From the NCBI RefSeq assembly GCF_001953175.1, contig NZ_CP018258.1, positions 1,764,210 to 1,828,209 on the forward strand: a stretch of DNA of 64,000 nucleotides, given 5' to 3'. This stretch comes from Dehalogenimonas formicexedens. Lineage in GTDB: Bacteria; Chloroflexota; Dehalococcoidia; Dehalococcoidales; Dehalococcoidaceae. A model generated the notes under the pieces. The model had not been told where the DNA came from and made no database searches. It saw only the letters and a program-made list of their open reading frames with translations. Positions 2,144-11,480 of this stretch are shown here, one piece after another. How positions within the stretch are numbered: the first letter of the stretch is position 1; the number at the start of each line of letters is the position of its first letter. The translations under genes and the position numbers were made by a program.

Positions 2144-2671
2144 TTACCGGGGCTGCTTCTGAATCGCCCGCATAAATGCCAGGAGTCCTCGCATTATTTC
2201 GAGTGGAGAAGGCGGATTACCGGGGATCTTGAAGTCGACGGGAAGGATTTTTTCGGCGGCGCCGAGAACCGCATAACTGTCTTTGATTAAACCGATGCCG
2301 CAGGCATCGTCACCCACCGCCACCACCCAACCCGGCTGCGGCATCGCGTCGTAGGTTTTTTTGGCTGCCTCCGCCATGGCCATGGTAACCGGACCGGTGA
2401 TAATGATGACATCGGCGTGCCGAGGCGAAGCGACGAAACTGACGCCGAAGCGTTCGATGTCGTAATGCGGCGTCCCCAGGTTATTGAGTTCGATCTCAAC
2501 GGCGTTGTCCGATCCGGAATCCACCTCGCGGATAGCCAGGCTGCGCCCGAAAACCCGGGCGATCTCCTTTTTAAGCTCCAGCCCGGCCTTTTCGAATTCC
2601 TCATTTTTAAAAGCGACCTTGCCGGCGAGCTTCGGCGAAAGGATATTATTTATCAGGCTCCTGGTGCTCAT
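2144..2671 (-). CDS. hyfI: Hydrogenase-4-like small subunit (HyfI/NuoB type), cysteine-free cluster site
   Basis: A 175-residue homologue of HyfI/HycG/NuoB, the subunit that normally carries the N2-type [4Fe-4S] cluster next to the active site. The backbone motifs are intact (SPRHADVIIITGPVT, SYAVLGAAEKILPVD, PGNPPSP). All four expected cluster ligands are replaced: the GSCNGC position reads GSDNAV, the GDCACG position reads GDDACG, and PGCPP reads PGNPP. Only one cysteine remains in the protein. It therefore cannot bind a classical N2 cluster. It overlaps the hyfG-like gene by four bases and ends the operon. Confidence 0.85.
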   Translation of the reverse strand: MSTRSLINNILSPKLAGKVAFKNEEFEKAGLELKKEIARVFGRSLAIREVDSGSDNAVEIELNNLGTPHYDIERFGVSFVASPRHADVIIITGPVTMAMAEAAKKTYDAMPQPGWVVAVGDDACGIGLIKDSYAVLGAAEKILPVDFKIPGNPPSPLEIMRGLLAFMRAIQKQPR

Positions 2672-4242
2672 AGATCGTTACCCGCGTAGGACAGATTCAG
2701 GCTTTTGTTGATCAGGGGAAAGTCCGGCACGATGTTGCCGATGACGGCGTGCTGGATAGCCAGCCAGTTGCAGAACGAAGACGTCCTGATCTTCCAGCGG
2801 TCGATTCGGCCGTCTTTGAGGCACACCCAGTGCAGGTTCTGTCCCCGCGCAGCTTCGACCAAGGACAGGGCGTAACCATTTTCCGGGCGGCACTCAACCA
2901 TCACCGCTCCAGACGCAGTTTTCTCGATAATGTCGCCGATCAGGCGCAATGACTCCTCGATCTCTCCGGCCTTTACCTGGAACCGGCTCAAGACATCGCC
3001 GGATTCCCCCGTCTCAACCTCAGGCTTGAATTCTTCGTATAATCCATAAGGGTGATCGACCCGGGTATCAATAGCCGTACCGGCGGCGCGGGCGGTGGGC
3101 CCGGTCAGGTTGAGCGGCGCCGCCAGCTCCCGTTTTACTATGCCGGTAGTCTCGAAGCGGTCGATAACCCAGGCCGAATCATAAACACCGTCCAGGGCTT
3201 CGTTGAATCGTGCCGAAAAAGACAGGGTATACCGCCTGAGGTTTTCGAGATCATCTTGCGCCGGATCCCGGGCGCAGCCACCGGGCACGATGAAACCCTT
3301 GAGGAAACGCGAGCCGGTGAGTCCGGCGTTCCAGCGTAAAATCTCTTCTCGCAGTACAAAGAACGGAGCCGCCCCCACCGGGTAAGCCACATCCACCGAC
3401 ATGCCGGCCAGGTCGCCGAGGTGGGAGTAGATTCGTTCGAGTTCAAGCGCAATCATCCGCAACTGCCAGGCGCGACGCGGGATGCTGACCCCGGCAATGT
3501 TCTCTATAGCCATGGCGAAGCCGCAGGCGTTGGCAGCGCTTTCGTCGCCGGAAACCGTCTCCGCCAGTTTAATAACTTCATCCGGGGGCTTGCCTTCGGC
3601 CAGCTTCTCGATGCCGCGGTGCTTCCAGAAATGCCGGATCTCCAGGTTGAAAATGGTCTCGCCGATGACGCTGAACCGGAAATGCCCCGGTTCGATAATG
3701 CCTGCGTGAACCGGTCCGACAGGGATCTCATAAACCCCTTCGCCGGAAATTTCCTTGAACCGGTATTCGCGCTCCGGCGTAATTTTGGACGGTTCCTGGC
3801 GGCGGCCGTCGAAGGATTTCAGGAGGGGATGGAAATCGTCGCCGTACACCTCGTGGAGAAATAGTCTCCTGGTGTCGAACGCGCCCGAAAACTCGATGCC
3901 GAAACCGTCCGTTACTTCGCGCTGGAAATAGCTGGCGATGGGGTACTCCTGGGCGATCGAGATCGCCCGGTTGCCGACCAGCCTGACCTCAAGGACAAAA
4001 AGGTCCTTTGCGCCTCGCCTTTCGAAGCAATAGAACAAGGTGAAGCCTTCGGCCGAAAAATCCTGCGCCGCCCAAAGCCCAATCAGCACCACATCTTTTT
4101 GCGTTTTTAAAACCGACACCGCTTCCACCAGGGCGACGACGCTTATGGACAGGTGGATTTCACCACCGGACCCCCTGCGGCTGCGGCTGTCGAAGCCTTT
4201 TTGGTAGAGATGGTGTTCAACTAAAGATGTCAGGTTTTGCAT
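2668..4242 (-). CDS. hyfG: Hydrogenase-4-like large subunit (HyfG type, NuoC-NuoD fusion), no NiFe cysteines
   Basis: A 524-residue protein with an N-terminal NuoC-like 30-kDa domain (about 1-170) and a NuoD/hydrogenase-large-subunit domain (about 175-520), as in HyfG/HycE. Conserved landmarks include VGPVHAGIIEPGHFRF and the IRTSSFCNW and VPDFPLINKSL region near the end. Both CxxC pairs of the [NiFe] site are absent: the RICGxC position reads TVSGDESAANACG and the terminal DPCxxC position reads NLSYAGNDL. It is cytoplasmic-side peripheral by family analogy. This is the pattern of hydrogenase-related (Ehr-type) complexes, not of an active hydrogenase. Confidence 0.88.
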   Translation of the reverse strand: MQNLTSLVEHHLYQKGFDSRSRRGSGGEIHLSISVVALVEAVSVLKTQKDVVLIGLWAAQDFSAEGFTLFYCFERRGAKDLFVLEVRLVGNRAISIAQEYPIASYFQREVTDGFGIEFSGAFDTRRLFLHEVYGDDFHPLLKSFDGRRQEPSKITPEREYRFKEISGEGVYEIPVGPVHAGIIEPGHFRFSVIGETIFNLEIRHFWKHRGIEKLAEGKPPDEVIKLAETVSGDESAANACGFAMAIENIAGVSIPRRAWQLRMIALELERIYSHLGDLAGMSVDVAYPVGAAPFFVLREEILRWNAGLTGSRFLKGFIVPGGCARDPAQDDLENLRRYTLSFSARFNEALDGVYDSAWVIDRFETTGIVKRELAAPLNLTGPTARAAGTAIDTRVDHPYGLYEEFKPEVETGESGDVLSRFQVKAGEIEESLRLIGDIIEKTASGAVMVECRPENGYALSLVEAARGQNLHWVCLKDGRIDRWKIRTSSFCNWLAIQHAVIGNIVPDFPLINKSLNLSYAGNDL

Positions 4243-4245
4243 ATC

Positions 4246-5718
4246 TTACAGACCCAGGTCAGAAACGATGGTACTCAGGATGCTATTGAGCCAACCGGGC
4301 AGATAGAGCCCGAGGGCGAACAATGCCAGGAGCGTCAAAATTATCGGGGCTTTCATGGTCATCGGGGTGGGGTAAGGCTGGATGGTTTCGTCATCCGGCT
4401 GGGAAAACGCCCTGACGAGGTAATAGCCGAAACCGGCGGCGACCAGTAAAAACCCGGCCAGCACGGCGATGAACAGGGGTAACGCCTGGGAAGCCATGAT
4501 CGAAAGAATATTGAACTTGGCCAAAAATACGGGCAGCGTCGGGGTGCCGATGGCCGCGGCTGAGCCGAGGATCAAACCCCAGGCGGCCAAAGGTTGCAGC
4601 CGGAAGGGGCTCTTTACGGCAAAGAACTTATTGGAATTGTACTGGCGGTGAAAAATGCCGGCGGAGAAAAAAAGCAGCGCTTTCACCAGCGCATTCCCGG
4701 CTTTGTGGAATAATGCCCAGAACAAGGCGACCGGCGAGCCCAAGCCGATGGCGACGAGGATCAATCCGGCTTGCTCCACACCGGAAAAGGCGATGACCTT
4801 CTTGGTGTTGGTGCGGGCGATGAGCGCCAGGGCGGCGATGAAAATGCTGATGGCGCCGAAGCTGATAAGCAGCGGATTCAGGAAATTGTCATCGCCGGCG
4901 CGGTGGCCTATGGCATACAAGCGGATGATGGCGTACAACCCCAGGTTGAGCACCGCGCCCGAGATAACCGCCACCACCGAAGGCGCCCTGACATAGACGG
5001 TGGGGAGCCAAGTATGAAAAGGAACGATAGCCGCCTTGGCGGCGAAACCGATAAACAGCAGCACGAAGGCGAAGGTGTAGAGCTTGGGCGGGATGGCGGA
5101 AGCCGCCGACATCAGGTCGGTCCAATTCAGGGTGCCGCCCGGCACCGCGGTCCGCGACAAGGCGAATAACACGATGACGCCGATAAAGGCGAAGAGCATG
5201 GCGGTCGAGGTCACGAAAACGTACTTGAGCGCCGCGGTGATATTCTCCCTGGCTTTCAATGTCACCAGGAGGACAACCGACAACAGGGTGGAAAGCTCGG
5301 CGAAGATCCACATCAGGGCGATGTTGTTGGCCAAAAAGCCCAACACCAGCACCAGGGGCAACAGGGCGAAAGAGCCATAGAACAGGCCGAGAAGCGACCT
5401 CTCTATTTCTCCCCGATCAAGCAGCGATGCCAGGTAACCCCGGGAATAGACCGCCGATAAAAGGAACAGAACCGAGGTGATCAATATCTCATACGCGCCG
5501 AAGGTGTCGGCGAAGAGATAATGGTTGCCGACCAGATAACGAGGCAGATCAGTGGCGACCAGCCACACCGCCAGACCTGAATAAATGATCGACTCGGCGA
5601 TGAGGAAGCTGTTAAGCAGTCGTCCATCGGTCTGAGGACGGAAACGGCCGAGTAAGAACGACGCCGCGGCGATCAGCAGCGCCGGGGCCGCAAAGCCGAC
5701 AATGATCAGGAATTCCAT
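4246..5718 (-). CDS. hyfF: Hydrogenase-4-like membrane subunit (HyfF/MrpD/NuoN type)
   Basis: A 490-residue polytopic protein of the antiporter-like family (NuoL/M/N, MrpA/D, HyfF). About 13-14 membrane segments are visible. The family core is present: a GFAAKAAIVPFHTWLPTVY segment with the conserved lysine and proline in the broken helix, and a KKVIAFSGVEQAGLILVAIGLG segment. Such subunits carry proton or sodium translocation. It stops 3 bases before hyfG and its start touches the stop of the HyfE-like gene, so translation is probably coupled. Confidence 0.87.
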   Translation of the reverse strand: MEFLIIVGFAAPALLIAAASFLLGRFRPQTDGRLLNSFLIAESIIYSGLAVWLVATDLPRYLVGNHYLFADTFGAYEILITSVLFLLSAVYSRGYLASLLDRGEIERSLLGLFYGSFALLPLVLVLGFLANNIALMWIFAELSTLLSVVLLVTLKARENITAALKYVFVTSTAMLFAFIGVIVLFALSRTAVPGGTLNWTDLMSAASAIPPKLYTFAFVLLFIGFAAKAAIVPFHTWLPTVYVRAPSVVAVISGAVLNLGLYAIIRLYAIGHRAGDDNFLNPLLISFGAISIFIAALALIARTNTKKVIAFSGVEQAGLILVAIGLGSPVALFWALFHKAGNALVKALLFFSAGIFHRQYNSNKFFAVKSPFRLQPLAAWGLILGSAAAIGTPTLPVFLAKFNILSIMASQALPLFIAVLAGFLLVAAGFGYYLVRAFSQPDDETIQPYPTPMTMKAPIILTLLALFALGLYLPGWLNSILSTIVSDLGL

Positions 5719-6395
5719 CAGTCTTCCGACTCCAGGCCGAGCTGGCTCAGCCGCTTGTGGAAGGCCTCCACCGACGAATCGATGCCGAAAGCCAGGACCG
5801 TGGACAGGACGATGATCATCAGCAGGTCAACCACGATCAACACCTCAATGATGAAAGGCATCTCGGCGATGAACAGCGAAAAAAGAAGCACCCCGTTTTC
5901 CATCGTGAGGTAACCGATGATCTTGGTAACCACCTTGCGCCGGCTCACGATAACCAGCATGCCCATCAATGCCAACGAGACGCCTATAATCGCGCCCAAA
6001 AGGAACAACGGGCCGACATCGAGCGAGGCTGAGAATACCCCGAAGGCCTTATAGACTACAAAAAACAGCGCCGCCGACATGATGATGGAACCGATCGGCG
6101 TCAGGTAACGGAACTCCAGGTCCCGCTTTATGGGCATCACCGCCAGCAGACGGCGCAGGAACATCGGGATGATAATCACCTTGGAAATTATGGTCAGCAG
6201 CGCCATCAGGAGCAGGCTCAGGGTGGACTCCCGGGAGAACAGTACCAGGGCTATTGCCGCGAGTATGCCCGACTGCAGGGCGTAGATCGAAAAGAGCGAC
6301 GTCAGGGACCGCTGGGTGATGATCAGCGCCGCGCTGCCGATCAGGAACACCAGCAGTATCTTGATGATGTCATCGCCAAATACGGTATCTGTCAT
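5718..6395 (-). CDS. hyfE: Hydrogenase-4-like membrane subunit (HyfE type, NuoK-like)
   Basis: A 225-residue membrane protein with about six to seven hydrophobic segments, matching HyfE in length and position. The GYLTMENGVLLFSLFIAEMPFIIEVLIVVDLLM region contains the glutamates within membrane helices that NuoK/HyfE proteins keep for ion transfer. It overlaps the HyfC-like gene by four bases. The next gene upstream supplies the NuoH-like subunit, so gene order is the same as in the hyf operon of enterobacteria with hyfA, D and H missing. Confidence 0.85.
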   Translation of the reverse strand: MTDTVFGDDIIKILLVFLIGSAALIITQRSLTSLFSIYALQSGILAAIALVLFSRESTLSLLLMALLTIISKVIIIPMFLRRLLAVMPIKRDLEFRYLTPIGSIIMSAALFFVVYKAFGVFSASLDVGPLFLLGAIIGVSLALMGMLVIVSRRKVVTKIIGYLTMENGVLLFSLFIAEMPFIIEVLIVVDLLMIIVLSTVLAFGIDSSVEAFHKRLSQLGLESED

Positions 6396-7330
6396 GCCAG
6401 TAACTCAAAAACGATTGTCGCGAAGGAAAAGAACAGCGCCAGCATAAAAAAGCTGGGCAGGCGGAACAACCTGATCTTGGCCATCATCGATTCAAAAACT
6501 CCAACGACTATGGAAAAGGTCAGAACTTTGGCGGCGAAACTCGCCATTGAAACGGCGATCGGAACGATCCCGGCATTCGAGGCAAGCCCCACCGGCCAGA
6601 CGATGTTTATCAATAGCGCCATCAGGATGGTCTGCTTGACCCCCTGCGACAGTTCCATTAGCGCCAGCTTGGGCCCGGTCTGTTCCAGGATCATGGCTTC
6701 ATGGATCATGGTCAGTTCAAGGTGCGTCTCAGGATTATCGACGGGAACGCGGGCGGTCTCCACTATGATGACGATGAACAGCGAGAAGGCCACCAGGATA
6801 AGCGTAGGATACTGGGCCAGCGACCCGTTGAGAGTGGTGGCGAACATTTCCGGGATATCGGTGGACTTTAGGACGAATGCGAGGGCCGCGACCGAGGTGA
6901 TCGTTACCGGCTCGATAATGGCCGACAGGCTCATTTCACGGGACGAACCCATGCCGCCGAAGGTCGAACCGGCGTCCAGTCCCGCCAGCGCCATGAAGAA
7001 TTTGGCAGTCACCATCAGGTATAAGAAGAGAATGATGTTGCCGATCCCCGAAACCTGGGGAAGGAAAACGACCGGCACCATGACCGACGCCGCCAGCAGG
7101 AAACCGATATTAAGGTATGGCGCCAGGCGCATGATGAAGGATGAGTTCGGAGAGTAGACTATCTCCTTTTTGAACAGCTTGAAAAGGTTGTAGTAACCCT
7201 GCAGGAGCGGGGGGCCGACGCGTCCCTGGGTGTAGGCTTTGACCTTCTTGATCAGCGTCATAGCCAGCGGCGAAATCGCCACCACGAAAATGGTGTTCAA
7301 AAGAAGATAAAGAACCGTGTTCAAGATCAC
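6392..7330 (-). CDS. hyfC: Hydrogenase-4-like membrane subunit (HyfC/NuoH type)
   Basis: A 312-residue NuoH/HyfC homologue with about eight membrane helices. Family motifs are seen: KAYTQGRVGPPLLQGYYNLFKL near the N-terminus (cytoplasmic loop), GSSREMSLSAIIEP in the middle, and ETARVPVDNPETHLELTMIHEAM with conserved charged residues of the E-channel. This subunit links the peripheral arm to the ion-translocating membrane arm. Four-base overlaps on both sides place it firmly within the operon. All residues one expects in the E-channel loop appear present, in contrast to the lost cofactor ligands in the peripheral subunits. Confidence 0.88.
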   Translation of the reverse strand: MILNTVLYLLLNTIFVVAISPLAMTLIKKVKAYTQGRVGPPLLQGYYNLFKLFKKEIVYSPNSSFIMRLAPYLNIGFLLAASVMVPVVFLPQVSGIGNIILFLYLMVTAKFFMALAGLDAGSTFGGMGSSREMSLSAIIEPVTITSVAALAFVLKSTDIPEMFATTLNGSLAQYPTLILVAFSLFIVIIVETARVPVDNPETHLELTMIHEAMILEQTGPKLALMELSQGVKQTILMALLINIVWPVGLASNAGIVPIAVSMASFAAKVLTFSIVVGVFESMMAKIRLFRLPSFFMLALFFSFATIVFELLA

Positions 7331-9264
7331 AGCAGTTGTCCTACTGCCAGGAGGATAACGACCACAACGGCAAAAACGTACATGACATTGGCGTCAAGGT
7401 CAACGTTGTGGAGCCTGGAAATAAAGGAGGCTATCCGCTTGACGAAAAGGGCCGTCGGCAGGTAGATACGTTCCTCGAAGAACTGCAGGGTATGCACCTC
7501 GCCTGAACCGCCCGAGACTATCGCTTTGTCTTTATCGAAAAACTCGCGCTTACCGGTTTTCCTGGTGCGGAAGATCGGACTGAAGATGGTGATTATCGGT
7601 TCGGAGAACCCGGAGGCGGTGTACTCCATCTTGCTCGTCTGGGTGTGGATGCCGCAGCCCCAGGTTTCGGAGACTCGGGCTTTGGCCTCCGACCGGCGTA
7701 ACGCGAGTACCGCCAACCAAAATACGGCGGCGGCGATGAGGCTGACCGGCAGGACGTTAGGTAATGGCAAGTCCAGACCGATTGCCCTCAATATCTGGTA
7801 GCTGAAAACGCCCAGGATGATACAAGCCGCGGCCAGAATGCCGGGGCCGACAAGCATGGCGCGGGGCGCTTCACGGGCATGCTCCGCTTCGCGCGACCGG
7901 GGCAGGGCCAGGAAGACGGCGCCGAATGCCTTGACGAAACAGGCGGCCGCCAGGGCGCTCATCAAGGCAAAACCGGCCAGGGCGGTGAACAGCAGTACCG
8001 CCGTCAAAGGGCTGGGCACCTGAAAGGCGCCGAGGTAAGCCTGGAAAAGCATCACCTCCGACGCAAAACCGTTGAGCGGAGGTAAAGCCGAAATGGCAGC
8101 CGAGCCGATGAGGAATATCGCCGCCGTAACTGGCATGGTTTTCACCAGACCGCCCATCTCCTCGATGTTCCGGGTATGGGTGGCAGCCACCACCGAGCCC
8201 GCCGTCATGAACAGCAGGCTCTTGAATATGGCGTGGTTCAGGGTATGGAACAACGCGCCGAAAAGCGACAGGTCGGCCAGGGTGTTCAGGCTATAGTGGC
8301 TGAAGATGACCCACAGGCCGAGGCCGATGACGATGATGCCGATATTTTCGATGGAGTGAAAAGCCAGCAATTTCTTGAGGTCATGTTCCTTGAGGGCATA
8401 GATGACGCCCAGAACCGCCGATACGGTGCCGAAGACCAACAACAATGTTCCCCACCACAGGTCAGGCGACAGGACATCGAGGAGGACGCGGATCAAGCCG
8501 TAGATTGCTACCTTGATCATCACCCCGGACATCAGCGCCGAGATGTTGGACGGGGCGGCGGCGTGGGCGAAGGGCAGCCACTTGTGGAAGGGAATGATGC
8601 CAGCCTTGGTGCCAAAGCCGATAAAGAAGGCAATGAAGATTATTCCTGCCGTCGACAGGGTGAGGCCGCCGGCTGACGCGATATCGAAGCTCCCGGTGTA
8701 GCGGTGCAAAAGGAGAGCCCCCAATAAGAGGAATAATGTCGAAAACTGGGTCATCACCAGGTAGTAAATGCCGGCTTTAACGGTCTCCGCCTTCTCCCGG
8801 TCAAACATGACCAGGAACAATGAGGACAGCGACATCAGCTCCCAGAAAAAAATGAACCCGAAGAAGTTGGCCGAAGCCACCACCAGCACCATCGACAAAA
8901 TGAAAACGGACATGGCCGCCACCGACATGTCGCGCCGTGCCTGGCTACCCGTGTGCTCGATGTATTTGAGCGAGTAAATGGCGACACAAGCGGCAACGGA
9001 ACTGACAATCAGGATGAAGAAAGCGGCGAGCCGGTCGAGGTGAAACGCGATCCCGAGTTGCGGTGTGAGCGAATAAATCCGGAAGGTGAGGTCGGAGTCG
9101 TCAGCGAGGATGACAATGGACGCCGCGATCCAGGCAAGGGCGCCGGCCATCACGAGGCCCAAGGCGAAACGGCGCCCGCTGCCCCTTTCCCGGCTCCCGG
9201 TGACCGACGTCAGAGCCGCCAGCACCATCGCCGCCCCACCGCCGAGGAATAGCCCCTCTATCAT
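7327..9264 (-). CDS. hyfB: Hydrogenase-4-like membrane subunit (HyfB/NuoL type)
   Basis: A 645-residue polytopic protein of the NuoL/HyfB family and the first gene of the operon. The core antiporter domain shows GFGTKAGIIPFHKWLPFAHAAAPSNISALMSGVMIK and LLAFHSIENIGIIVIGLGL, with the lysines and glutamates expected for ion transfer, and an early FIFFWELMSLSSLFLV helix containing the conserved glutamate. A hydrophilic stretch near the end (about 520-600, with WGCGIHTQTSKMEYTASGFSEPI) is typical of HyfB. It is preceded by a 90-base leader with a terminator-like hairpin. Confidence 0.88.
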   Translation of the reverse strand: MIEGLFLGGGAAMVLAALTSVTGSRERGSGRRFALGLVMAGALAWIAASIVILADDSDLTFRIYSLTPQLGIAFHLDRLAAFFILIVSSVAACVAIYSLKYIEHTGSQARRDMSVAAMSVFILSMVLVVASANFFGFIFFWELMSLSSLFLVMFDREKAETVKAGIYYLVMTQFSTLFLLLGALLLHRYTGSFDIASAGGLTLSTAGIIFIAFFIGFGTKAGIIPFHKWLPFAHAAAPSNISALMSGVMIKVAIYGLIRVLLDVLSPDLWWGTLLLVFGTVSAVLGVIYALKEHDLKKLLAFHSIENIGIIVIGLGLWVIFSHYSLNTLADLSLFGALFHTLNHAIFKSLLFMTAGSVVAATHTRNIEEMGGLVKTMPVTAAIFLIGSAAISALPPLNGFASEVMLFQAYLGAFQVPSPLTAVLLFTALAGFALMSALAAACFVKAFGAVFLALPRSREAEHAREAPRAMLVGPGILAAACIILGVFSYQILRAIGLDLPLPNVLPVSLIAAAVFWLAVLALRRSEAKARVSETWGCGIHTQTSKMEYTASGFSEPIITIFSPIFRTRKTGKREFFDKDKAIVSGGSGEVHTLQFFEERIYLPTALFVKRIASFISRLHNVDLDANVMYVFAVVVVILLAVGQLL

Positions 9265-9842: not shown

Positions 9843-11480
9843 CTAAACAGCGGCCGTAACGGGTTCTGTTTCCGCGACCCTGACGCGGCCGGCGATCGAG
9901 GTCAGGAATTCAACGATCGTATCGGAGGGATTGATGTGCGGCGGTTTCAAATGCGCCAGTTCAGCGCCGCCGGCCTGCTGCTTCATTTTGTACAATTTGA
10001 AAGCCCCGTGCGGCAGTACAGTGGCGTCAATGGGTTGAAGGCCGGTGAACTCTTCCAGTTCGGCGTACGGGGTATCGAGTTTCTTGAGTTCCGAGTGTAT
10101 GGCCGACGCTACTTCCTGCGCCGTCCTGGTTTCATGGCGTTTCAATTCAACGTAAACATGAAGCTCAGGCTTGTCACCCACGACCTCCTTGCGGGCGGTC
10201 CAGTCTTCATACTCTATTCCGGAGTTTTCAAGCGCCTGCCAGATAACCTTTTCGGAAAGCCTGGTGAAGCCCGCGATATCTATCTGGTCGTCCAGCCTGG
10301 TCAGGAACCTCATTTGCGGGATGTCGATATCAAGCTTGTCGTTCCGCAGCGCGGTGATCTCTACCAGGTGACCCAGGCGGTACCGGACAAAGGCGCCTCC
10401 GTGTAGATTGGTGATCACCAACTCATACTTACCGGGCTTGAGTTCATCCATCAGGAAAGTCTCAGGCTGATAGGTTGGATCCTGCCAGCACTTAACGGCT
10501 TCGGCTTCAGGGATGAATTCAAAAAAGTTCATATGGGGTACGAAAGTCATGCCTTCGTGATCCCAGGTCTGCATGGCGATGATGGGAGCCTCGGTGCATC
10601 CGTGGAAATCAAGGGGGTACTGGCCCCACATATCTTTAATCTTATCGCGGAAGACGTCGCCATCGATGCCGTAGGTGATCAGCCCCTTAAGCTTCCAGAG
10701 ATCCTTGGGCAGCATCTGGCGTCCTGCCAGTTTGGAGACCACCTTGCCTTTTATCAGCCGCGCCAATGTCCTGGGCTGTTTCACCAGTTTCTTGATATCC
10801 ACGGAACCGCCGCTGTGCTTGAACCTCTCACCGATGGCGTAGGCGACGCTGGACATGGACAGAACCCAATCCATGCCGTGGTCCAGCCCCATCTTGAACC
10901 CGGTGTTTATCCGGTCTTCGAACGAAACCTGCTCGGCTTCCGAAACAGGAGGCAGGAAATCGAACATCTCGTGGGGGAAAACGCGGGTCATCGTGCCGGT
11001 AGCGTAGGGCGGCGGGGCCATCCCGTAAAGGACGCGGTCACCGGGGCGGATCTTGATGTCATATCTCTTGGTCGCCGCGGAGAAGAAGGACAGCGCGAAC
11101 ACCAGGGCTTCGGTCTCGTCAAGCATCCTGGCGGTCACCGGCGCCCAGCGGTAGGAATACTCAGCGCTCTTGCCGGAAGTATACTGCCACAGGATAGGCT
11201 TGCGCGGCAGAACTTCCCAGCGCCGTTTCAGGAGGTAAGGGGCGTAGTCCTCGTAGCTGGTCAACGGCACCATCCTTCGGAATTCTTCAACGCTGGTCGG
11301 GTTGGCACCCTTCAGGATGCCTTTGCCGAGCTGGCAATTTTTCAGTAGTTCCAGTTGCTCCATGAGCAACCTCTTCTGGATACCCATGAACTCCGGGAGC
11401 GAAAGGTCGATGAAGCCGCAGCAGCGGTCCCACATTTCATCGTATTTACCCTGGCGGAATAACTCAGATAGCTGGCTCAC
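9843..11480 (-). CDS. GH3 auxin-responsive promoter family protein
   Basis: A 545-residue protein of the GH3 family, members of the adenylate-forming superfamily that make acyl-adenylates and in plants conjugate them to amino acids. Visible landmarks: KRLLMEQLELLKNCQLGKG, a LWQYTSGKSAEYSYRWAPVT nucleotide-binding region, ITYGIDGDVFR, the FHGCTEAPIIAMQTW core and YELVITNLHGGAFVRYRLGHLVEI. Bacterial GH3 proteins have no settled substrate. It converges on smr with a shared terminator and lies three bases downstream of the methyltransferase gene, so the pair is probably co-transcribed and could act on one small lipophilic acid; that link is inference. Confidence 0.85.
   Translation of the reverse strand: MSQLSELFRQGKYDEMWDRCCGFIDLSLPEFMGIQKRLLMEQLELLKNCQLGKGILKGANPTSVEEFRRMVPLTSYEDYAPYLLKRRWEVLPRKPILWQYTSGKSAEYSYRWAPVTARMLDETEALVFALSFFSAATKRYDIKIRPGDRVLYGMAPPPYATGTMTRVFPHEMFDFLPPVSEAEQVSFEDRINTGFKMGLDHGMDWVLSMSSVAYAIGERFKHSGGSVDIKKLVKQPRTLARLIKGKVVSKLAGRQMLPKDLWKLKGLITYGIDGDVFRDKIKDMWGQYPLDFHGCTEAPIIAMQTWDHEGMTFVPHMNFFEFIPEAEAVKCWQDPTYQPETFLMDELKPGKYELVITNLHGGAFVRYRLGHLVEITALRNDKLDIDIPQMRFLTRLDDQIDIAGFTRLSEKVIWQALENSGIEYEDWTARKEVVGDKPELHVYVELKRHETRTAQEVASAIHSELKKLDTPYAELEEFTGLQPIDATVLPHGAFKLYKMKQQAGGAELAHLKPPHINPSDTIVEFLTSIAGRVRVAETEPVTAAV

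Follow-up and report, generated by a model that had tools for sequence, protein, structure and literature searches.

A hydrogenase-like complex encoded in Dehalogenimonas formicexedens has, almost certainly, lost its known cofactor sites; both the [NiFe] ligands of the large subunit and the N2 [4Fe-4S] ligands of the small subunit are replaced. The complex belongs to a conserved clade common to bacteria and archaea and is not a local oddity, which extends the preliminary description of this DNA. The best explanation, held with moderate confidence, is a cluster-less Ehr complex that would act as a gated, gradient-driven ion transporter with a non-redox site at the former redox site.

Operon layout and replaced ligands

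The window (the whole stretch of DNA that was analysed, 64,000 nucleotides) is part of a single-contig genome of 2,092,789 bases. The operon is located at 2144-9264 on the minus strand and encodes a relative of complex I and group 4 hydrogenases. It contains six genes in the order hyfB-C-E-F-G-I, as given in the preliminary description; all six reading frames are found there, neighbouring frames overlap or sit a few bases apart, and the Pfam and NCBIfam assignments agree. Two antiporter-like membrane subunits are present, B (HyfB/NuoL-like, 645 aa, 7327..9264) and F (HyfF/NuoM/N-like, 490 aa, 4246..5718). Between them lie a HyfC/NuoH-like membrane subunit (312 aa, 6392..7330) and a HyfE-like membrane subunit that holds a NuoK-like stretch (225 aa, 5718..6395). 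The remaining genes encode the large subunit (HyfG/NuoCD/EhrL-like, 524 aa, 2668..4242) and the small subunit (HyfI/NuoB/EhrS-like, 175 aa, 2144..2671). In Pfam, the membrane subunits are NADHdh and Proton_antipo_M, the large subunit is Complex1_49kDa plus Complex1_30kDa, and the small subunit contains Oxidored_q6 (E 3.9e-21). In NCBIfam, subunit B scores 863.8 bits with PRK08667, above the cut-off of 794; subunit F scores 500.4 bits with PRK08676, below the cut-off of 511.

Alignment with E. coli HycE reveals that both NiFe CxxC pairs are missing from the large subunit: VCGIC is replaced by VSGDE and DPCYSC by LNLSYAG. The protein stops at the L2 position, three residues beyond LNLSYAG. Its AlphaFold model (mean pLDDT 85.8, with a weak loop at 165-207) matches HycE over 483 residues (Z 43.0). 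Over most of their length, the models of both soluble subunits match structures of complex I and of formate hydrogenlyase. A relative of Selenomonas ruminantium (L120:8902-10440) has both CxxC pairs (CGAC and CYAC) in an otherwise Ehr-like large subunit; this protein, which branches near the family's base, may be a true hydrogenase, and it resembles the one Ehr with all four cysteines on record (PMC3569383).

All four N2 cysteines are replaced in the small subunit. In an alignment with MbhJ (6cfw_J), the CxxC pair corresponds to D55 and V58, the third cysteine to D122 and the fourth to N152. Computed from the protein coordinates, the codons of D55, D122 and N152 are located at 2507..2509, 2306..2308 and 2216..2218 of the minus strand, respectively. 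The AlphaFold model (mean pLDDT 91.5) matches 6cfw_J at residues 18-155 (138 residues, Z 18.7, 2.0 A). A shift of the ligands to other positions is ruled out, as the protein has a single cysteine, C124. The soluble-arm fold is predicted to be intact; the ligands are not kept. The replacement of both sets of ligands, proposed from the letters alone, is borne out by the HycE and MbhJ alignments. So is the removal of the known electron path, there being also no subunit for a known redox cofactor in the operon.

The membrane ion path appears largely intact. Subunit B retains NuoL E144, K229, H334 and H338, and has Glu at the position of K399, as does E. coli HyfB. Subunit F retains NuoM E144 and K234, and subunit C retains NuoH E157, D213, E216, E220 and E228. 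In subunit E, as in E. coli HyfE, there is no aligned Glu for the two NuoK glutamates. The statement that all membrane ion-channel motifs are kept is thus slightly too strong; it holds for most of the charges and fails for the NuoK glutamates. At the last NuoM channel position, subunit F has Lys in the window and in Methanosarcina, whereas Dehalococcoides and one cluster-intact Ehr have Glu; the ion path through this subunit may therefore differ among members. No MrpF-type subunit (PF04066) is found in any of the eleven genomes of the family, which rules out an Mrp antiporter.

Relationship to Ehr complexes, distribution and constraint

The complex has neither the large-subunit CxxC pairs nor the small-subunit proximal [4Fe-4S] ligands of group 4 [NiFe] hydrogenases. 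It shares gene order, membrane subunits and both soluble-subunit folds with E. coli hydrogenase-4 and formate hydrogenlyase (Hyf, Hyc), but lacks NiFe, N2, HyfA, HyfH, HyfD and the C-terminal tail past L2. With respiratory complex I it has in common the NuoB/NuoD fold and the NuoH-like and antiporter-like subunits (NuoB, NuoCD, NuoH, NuoL/M/N); in contrast to complex I, it has no N2, and NuoI, NuoE-G, NuoA and NuoJ are absent from the operon.

Ehr complexes have the same subunits, no NiFe cysteines and an SGD / SYxGND signature, and the window complex falls inside Ehr in the tree (PMC6349859, PMC10432482, PMC10284858). Hyf/Ech-like membrane subunits are encoded in one operon with a large subunit, devoid of NiFe CxxC pairs, and a small subunit. 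In contrast to Ehr, all four N2 cysteines are replaced by fixed residues; N2 ligands are usual in Ehr and are not given as defining in published accounts.

A scan of species genomes with the large-subunit alignment identified 574 relatives, of which the best 80 were kept; counts are consequently lower bounds. One group of 100 tree rows (support 100) is separate from E. coli HyfG and from Nuo and Ech. In this group the window large subunit is found with taxa having published Ehr (Nitrosotalea, Nitrososphaeraceae, Nitrospirae, Saganbacteria and CPR), matched by taxon rather than by published protein; the Ehr family is reported from taxa that are also in this tree (PMC6349859, PMC10432482, PMC10284858, PMC7304191). 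Among the best 80 of 574 relatives, practically every large subunit has SGD and SYxGND-like residues instead of NiFe cysteines. Loss of NiFe ligands alone is ordinary and is the hallmark of known Ehr complexes. Loss of N2 goes beyond this, as most Ehr keep it: all four cysteines are present in 60 of 94 aligned small subunits and, outside the window clade, in 60 of 68, a set that takes in a few references (Nuo, Ech and Hyf). The preliminary view of an Ehr-type relative that departs from ordinary Ehr is supported by the tree and by these counts. The literature searched contains no report of Ehr small subunits that lack the cluster, but the primary accounts of Ehr (Coppi; Marreiros 2013) may mention them.

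Ten of eleven genomes of the family have orthologues arranged in the same order (G007 is the exception), and the complex is present in 25 of 156 genomes of the order Dehalococcoidales. When 400 genomes are drawn evenly from the phylum, it is present solely in members of that taxonomic order at the threshold used; a wider draw also finds it in two other members of the class. Leaving the class aside, the nearest of the best 80 of 574 relatives come from archaea (Bathyarchaeota, Altiarchaeales, Methanosarcina and Methanoregula, with 52-58% identity), and together with Dehalococcoidales these make up the window clade. The clade comprises at least 25 large subunits (SH-aLRT support 100), and the operon in its complete loci always consists of the same six genes. 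The copy in Methanosarcina sp. 2.H.T.1A.6 is on a 220 kb contig, where a gene from the FilR1 family of methanogenesis regulators adjoins the operon; contamination is therefore unlikely there.

The conservation of the replacement residues in Dehalococcoidia has been checked: identical replacements recur in ten of the eleven family genomes and in archaea, which rules out sequencing error. An oddity of a single genome is likewise ruled out by the surveys of family, order and phylum. In an Altiarchaeales locus (L066:3949-19575), the six-gene unit is followed by a few other genes, including one restriction-endonuclease homologue; after these, B, C, E and F are present a second time, in a copy that continues past the end of the locus.

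Cluster-less small subunits are found in the main clade, in a CPR group (L128, L132, L139 and L140) and in a Dehalococcoidia pair (L152 and L153); L119, a long branch from Micrarchaeota, adjoins the main clade. This distribution needs at least three changes on the tree. When all cluster-less sequences are held as one clade, the AU test gives p 0.029, for a group that was named post hoc and contains several long branches. A single origin fits worse; several origins are likely, though not certain, and the result is suggestive. The four CPR loci have different replacements (e.g. GSDNACE/GDDAI/PGDPP), and their small-subunit gene is first rather than last. L152:4619-5554 and L153:11884-12789 have no N2 ligands, but these proteins are longer and contain a ferredoxin-like C..C..C...C motif; apparently the proximal cluster has been lost and an outer one kept.

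The replacement motifs GSDN/GDDAC/PGNPP are fixed in the window clade. D55, D122 and C124 are present in 26 of 26 small subunits and N152 and K148 in 25 of 26; the replacements are nearly as invariant as the cysteines that they replace. C124 has a counterpart in 16 of 53 cluster-intact Ehr, against all 26 in the clade. Further clade-specific residues are N64 in the small subunit and E234, N238, T487 and H498 in the large subunit. Within the genus, dN/dS is 0.04-0.15 in all subunits compared; for more distant pairs dS is near or above saturation, so these ratios are approximate. At the replaced sites synonymous codons turn over while the residues stay unchanged. The complex is under strong purifying selection. 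In separate branches, Asp, Glu or Asn recurs at former cysteine positions.

Proposed ion transport and its alternatives

These sequences are read most economically if ion flow is coupled to an event that is not electron transfer. The complex would not be a hydrogenase, and electrons would not pass through the classical chain. Less certainly, the soluble arm may have become a non-redox site that binds a ligand, a metal ion or a proton; putative site residues are D55, N64, D122, C124, K148 and N152 in the small subunit and E234, N238, T487 and H498 in the large subunit. The state of this site would be relayed to the NuoH-like subunit and the antiporter-like subunits, and the complex would then operate as a gated transporter of H+ or Na+ that is driven by a gradient; a pump powered by a non-redox reaction at the site is less likely. 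It is plausible, though a tentative proposal, that electron transfer was abandoned and the ion path was coupled to a new non-redox site in place of N2, one that is fixed in the clade and evolved more than once. CPA1-type exchangers are also encoded in the window's genome, so another antiporter is not obviously needed; this counts against the transporter reading.

Two further points weaken the non-redox reading. The strong conservation of the soluble arm is explained just as well by a redox role that has gone unrecognised, and an operon-based view would miss a partner protein, or a bound organic cofactor, whose genes lie elsewhere. A complex that still pumps ions by redox chemistry, with electrons passing through an unrecognised cofactor or an unlinked partner, is unlikely but draws on several observations. 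Ehr is generally suspected to be redox-coupled (PMC6349859), and a Geobacter Ehr, a presumed counterpart of this complex, rises with formate (PMC7894505). Purifying selection on the soluble arm is strong, and only two residues separate the invariant C124 from the position of the third ligand. A carboxylate can serve as ligand to one iron of a [4Fe-4S] cluster. Candidate cofactors would be a metal site of Asp, Asn and Cys124, a flavin or F420; direct hydride transfer is a further candidate. Against a redox role, C124 is the sole cysteine in 17 of 26 clade small subunits, which excludes a conventional four-cysteine cluster. In addition, Dehalococcoides is described as having no quinones or cytochromes (PMC10772276), which makes a quinone acceptor unlikely there.

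Gene neighbourhoods likewise offer little to a redox complex, as no redox gene is linked to the operon in clade loci. In these loci, no reading frame with a C..C..C...C motif belongs to the operon; one is found further off in L148. The preliminary description was correct that a ferredoxin-type subunit is absent from the operon; this is not special, since most inspected cluster-intact Ehr operons also have no separate ferredoxin-motif gene. When the neighbouring genes were clustered, bacteria and archaea shared just one grouping, of response-regulator receivers, and its position varied; conserved neighbours thus give no functional link. Ten archaeal neighbours tested are regulators, transferases, a citrate transporter, a restriction enzyme and the like, while the operon in the window is flanked by DUF488, Smr and GH3 proteins. 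The GH3-family protein (auxin-amido-synthetase fold family), at 9843-11480, lies beside the operon in a Dehalococcoidia genome.

Less probable still is a chemical pump, in which the former redox site would catalyse a non-redox reaction (e.g. hydration or hydrolysis) coupled to ion movement. DAB inorganic-carbon pumps, which consist of a NuoL-like subunit and a zinc protein, are comparable in principle, and the former N2 motifs contain conserved polar residues (two Asp, one Asn, one Cys and one Lys). However, there is no conserved His in the small-subunit motifs, a metal at the site is putative, and no enzyme gene is linked. A decaying relic heading for loss is very improbable: the complex is missing in one of eleven family genomes (G007) and a B gene in Dehalococcoides has an in-frame TAG near its end, but dN/dS is low, the replacement residues are invariant across bacteria and archaea and the six genes are intact in nearly all complete loci, so that the constraint data already contradict it.

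Hyc of Dehalococcoides and relatives in Methanosarcina

Hyc is listed among the hydrogenases of Dehalococcoides (PMC2930330, PMC6113397). In a D. mccartyi 195-like genome (G001), the cluster-less small subunit is located at 1.41 Mb; the genome has just two further NuoB-like genes, whose identity and position assign them to Nuo and Ech. DET1570 is annotated as 'hydrogenase, group 4, HycG subunit' (PMC5102406), which fits this position. By position, we infer that the cluster-less complex of Dehalococcoides is Hyc. The B gene of this genome (L037:12141-14075; G001:C1:1417131-1419062) carries one in-frame TAG close to the 3' end, so that 621 aa remain; it is intact in the other two genomes of the genus.

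NCBIfam PRK08667 (cut-off 794) gives 864 bits for the B subunit of the window, 1114 for that of Dehalococcoides and 1045 for that of Methanosarcina; the Methanosarcina F subunit scores 755 bits with PRK08676 (cut-off 511). Five Ehr B subunits from outside the clade (three N2-intact and two cluster-less) score just 522-566 with PRK08667, and this model therefore tracks the window clade, as does PRK08676. The name 'hydrogenase membrane subunit', carried by both models, is unfit for this clade. Among 14 control genomes searched at strict thresholds, Methanosarcina acetivorans is the only match, and it is above the curated cut-off for both models. M. acetivorans is genetically tractable; the system, known there from the clade-specific membrane subunits alone, looks genetically testable.

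It has long been asked how complex I uses redox chemistry to move ions. A complex found in nature that has the membrane arm and the soluble fold but no known redox centre raises the question whether electron transfer is separable from the rest of the machine. For organohalide respiration, an assumption is corrected: Hyc of Dehalococcoides, which is counted as a hydrogenase, is without NiFe and N2 ligands. Judged from its sequence, this 'hydrogenase' is probably an ion transporter that is driven or controlled by an event other than electron transfer.
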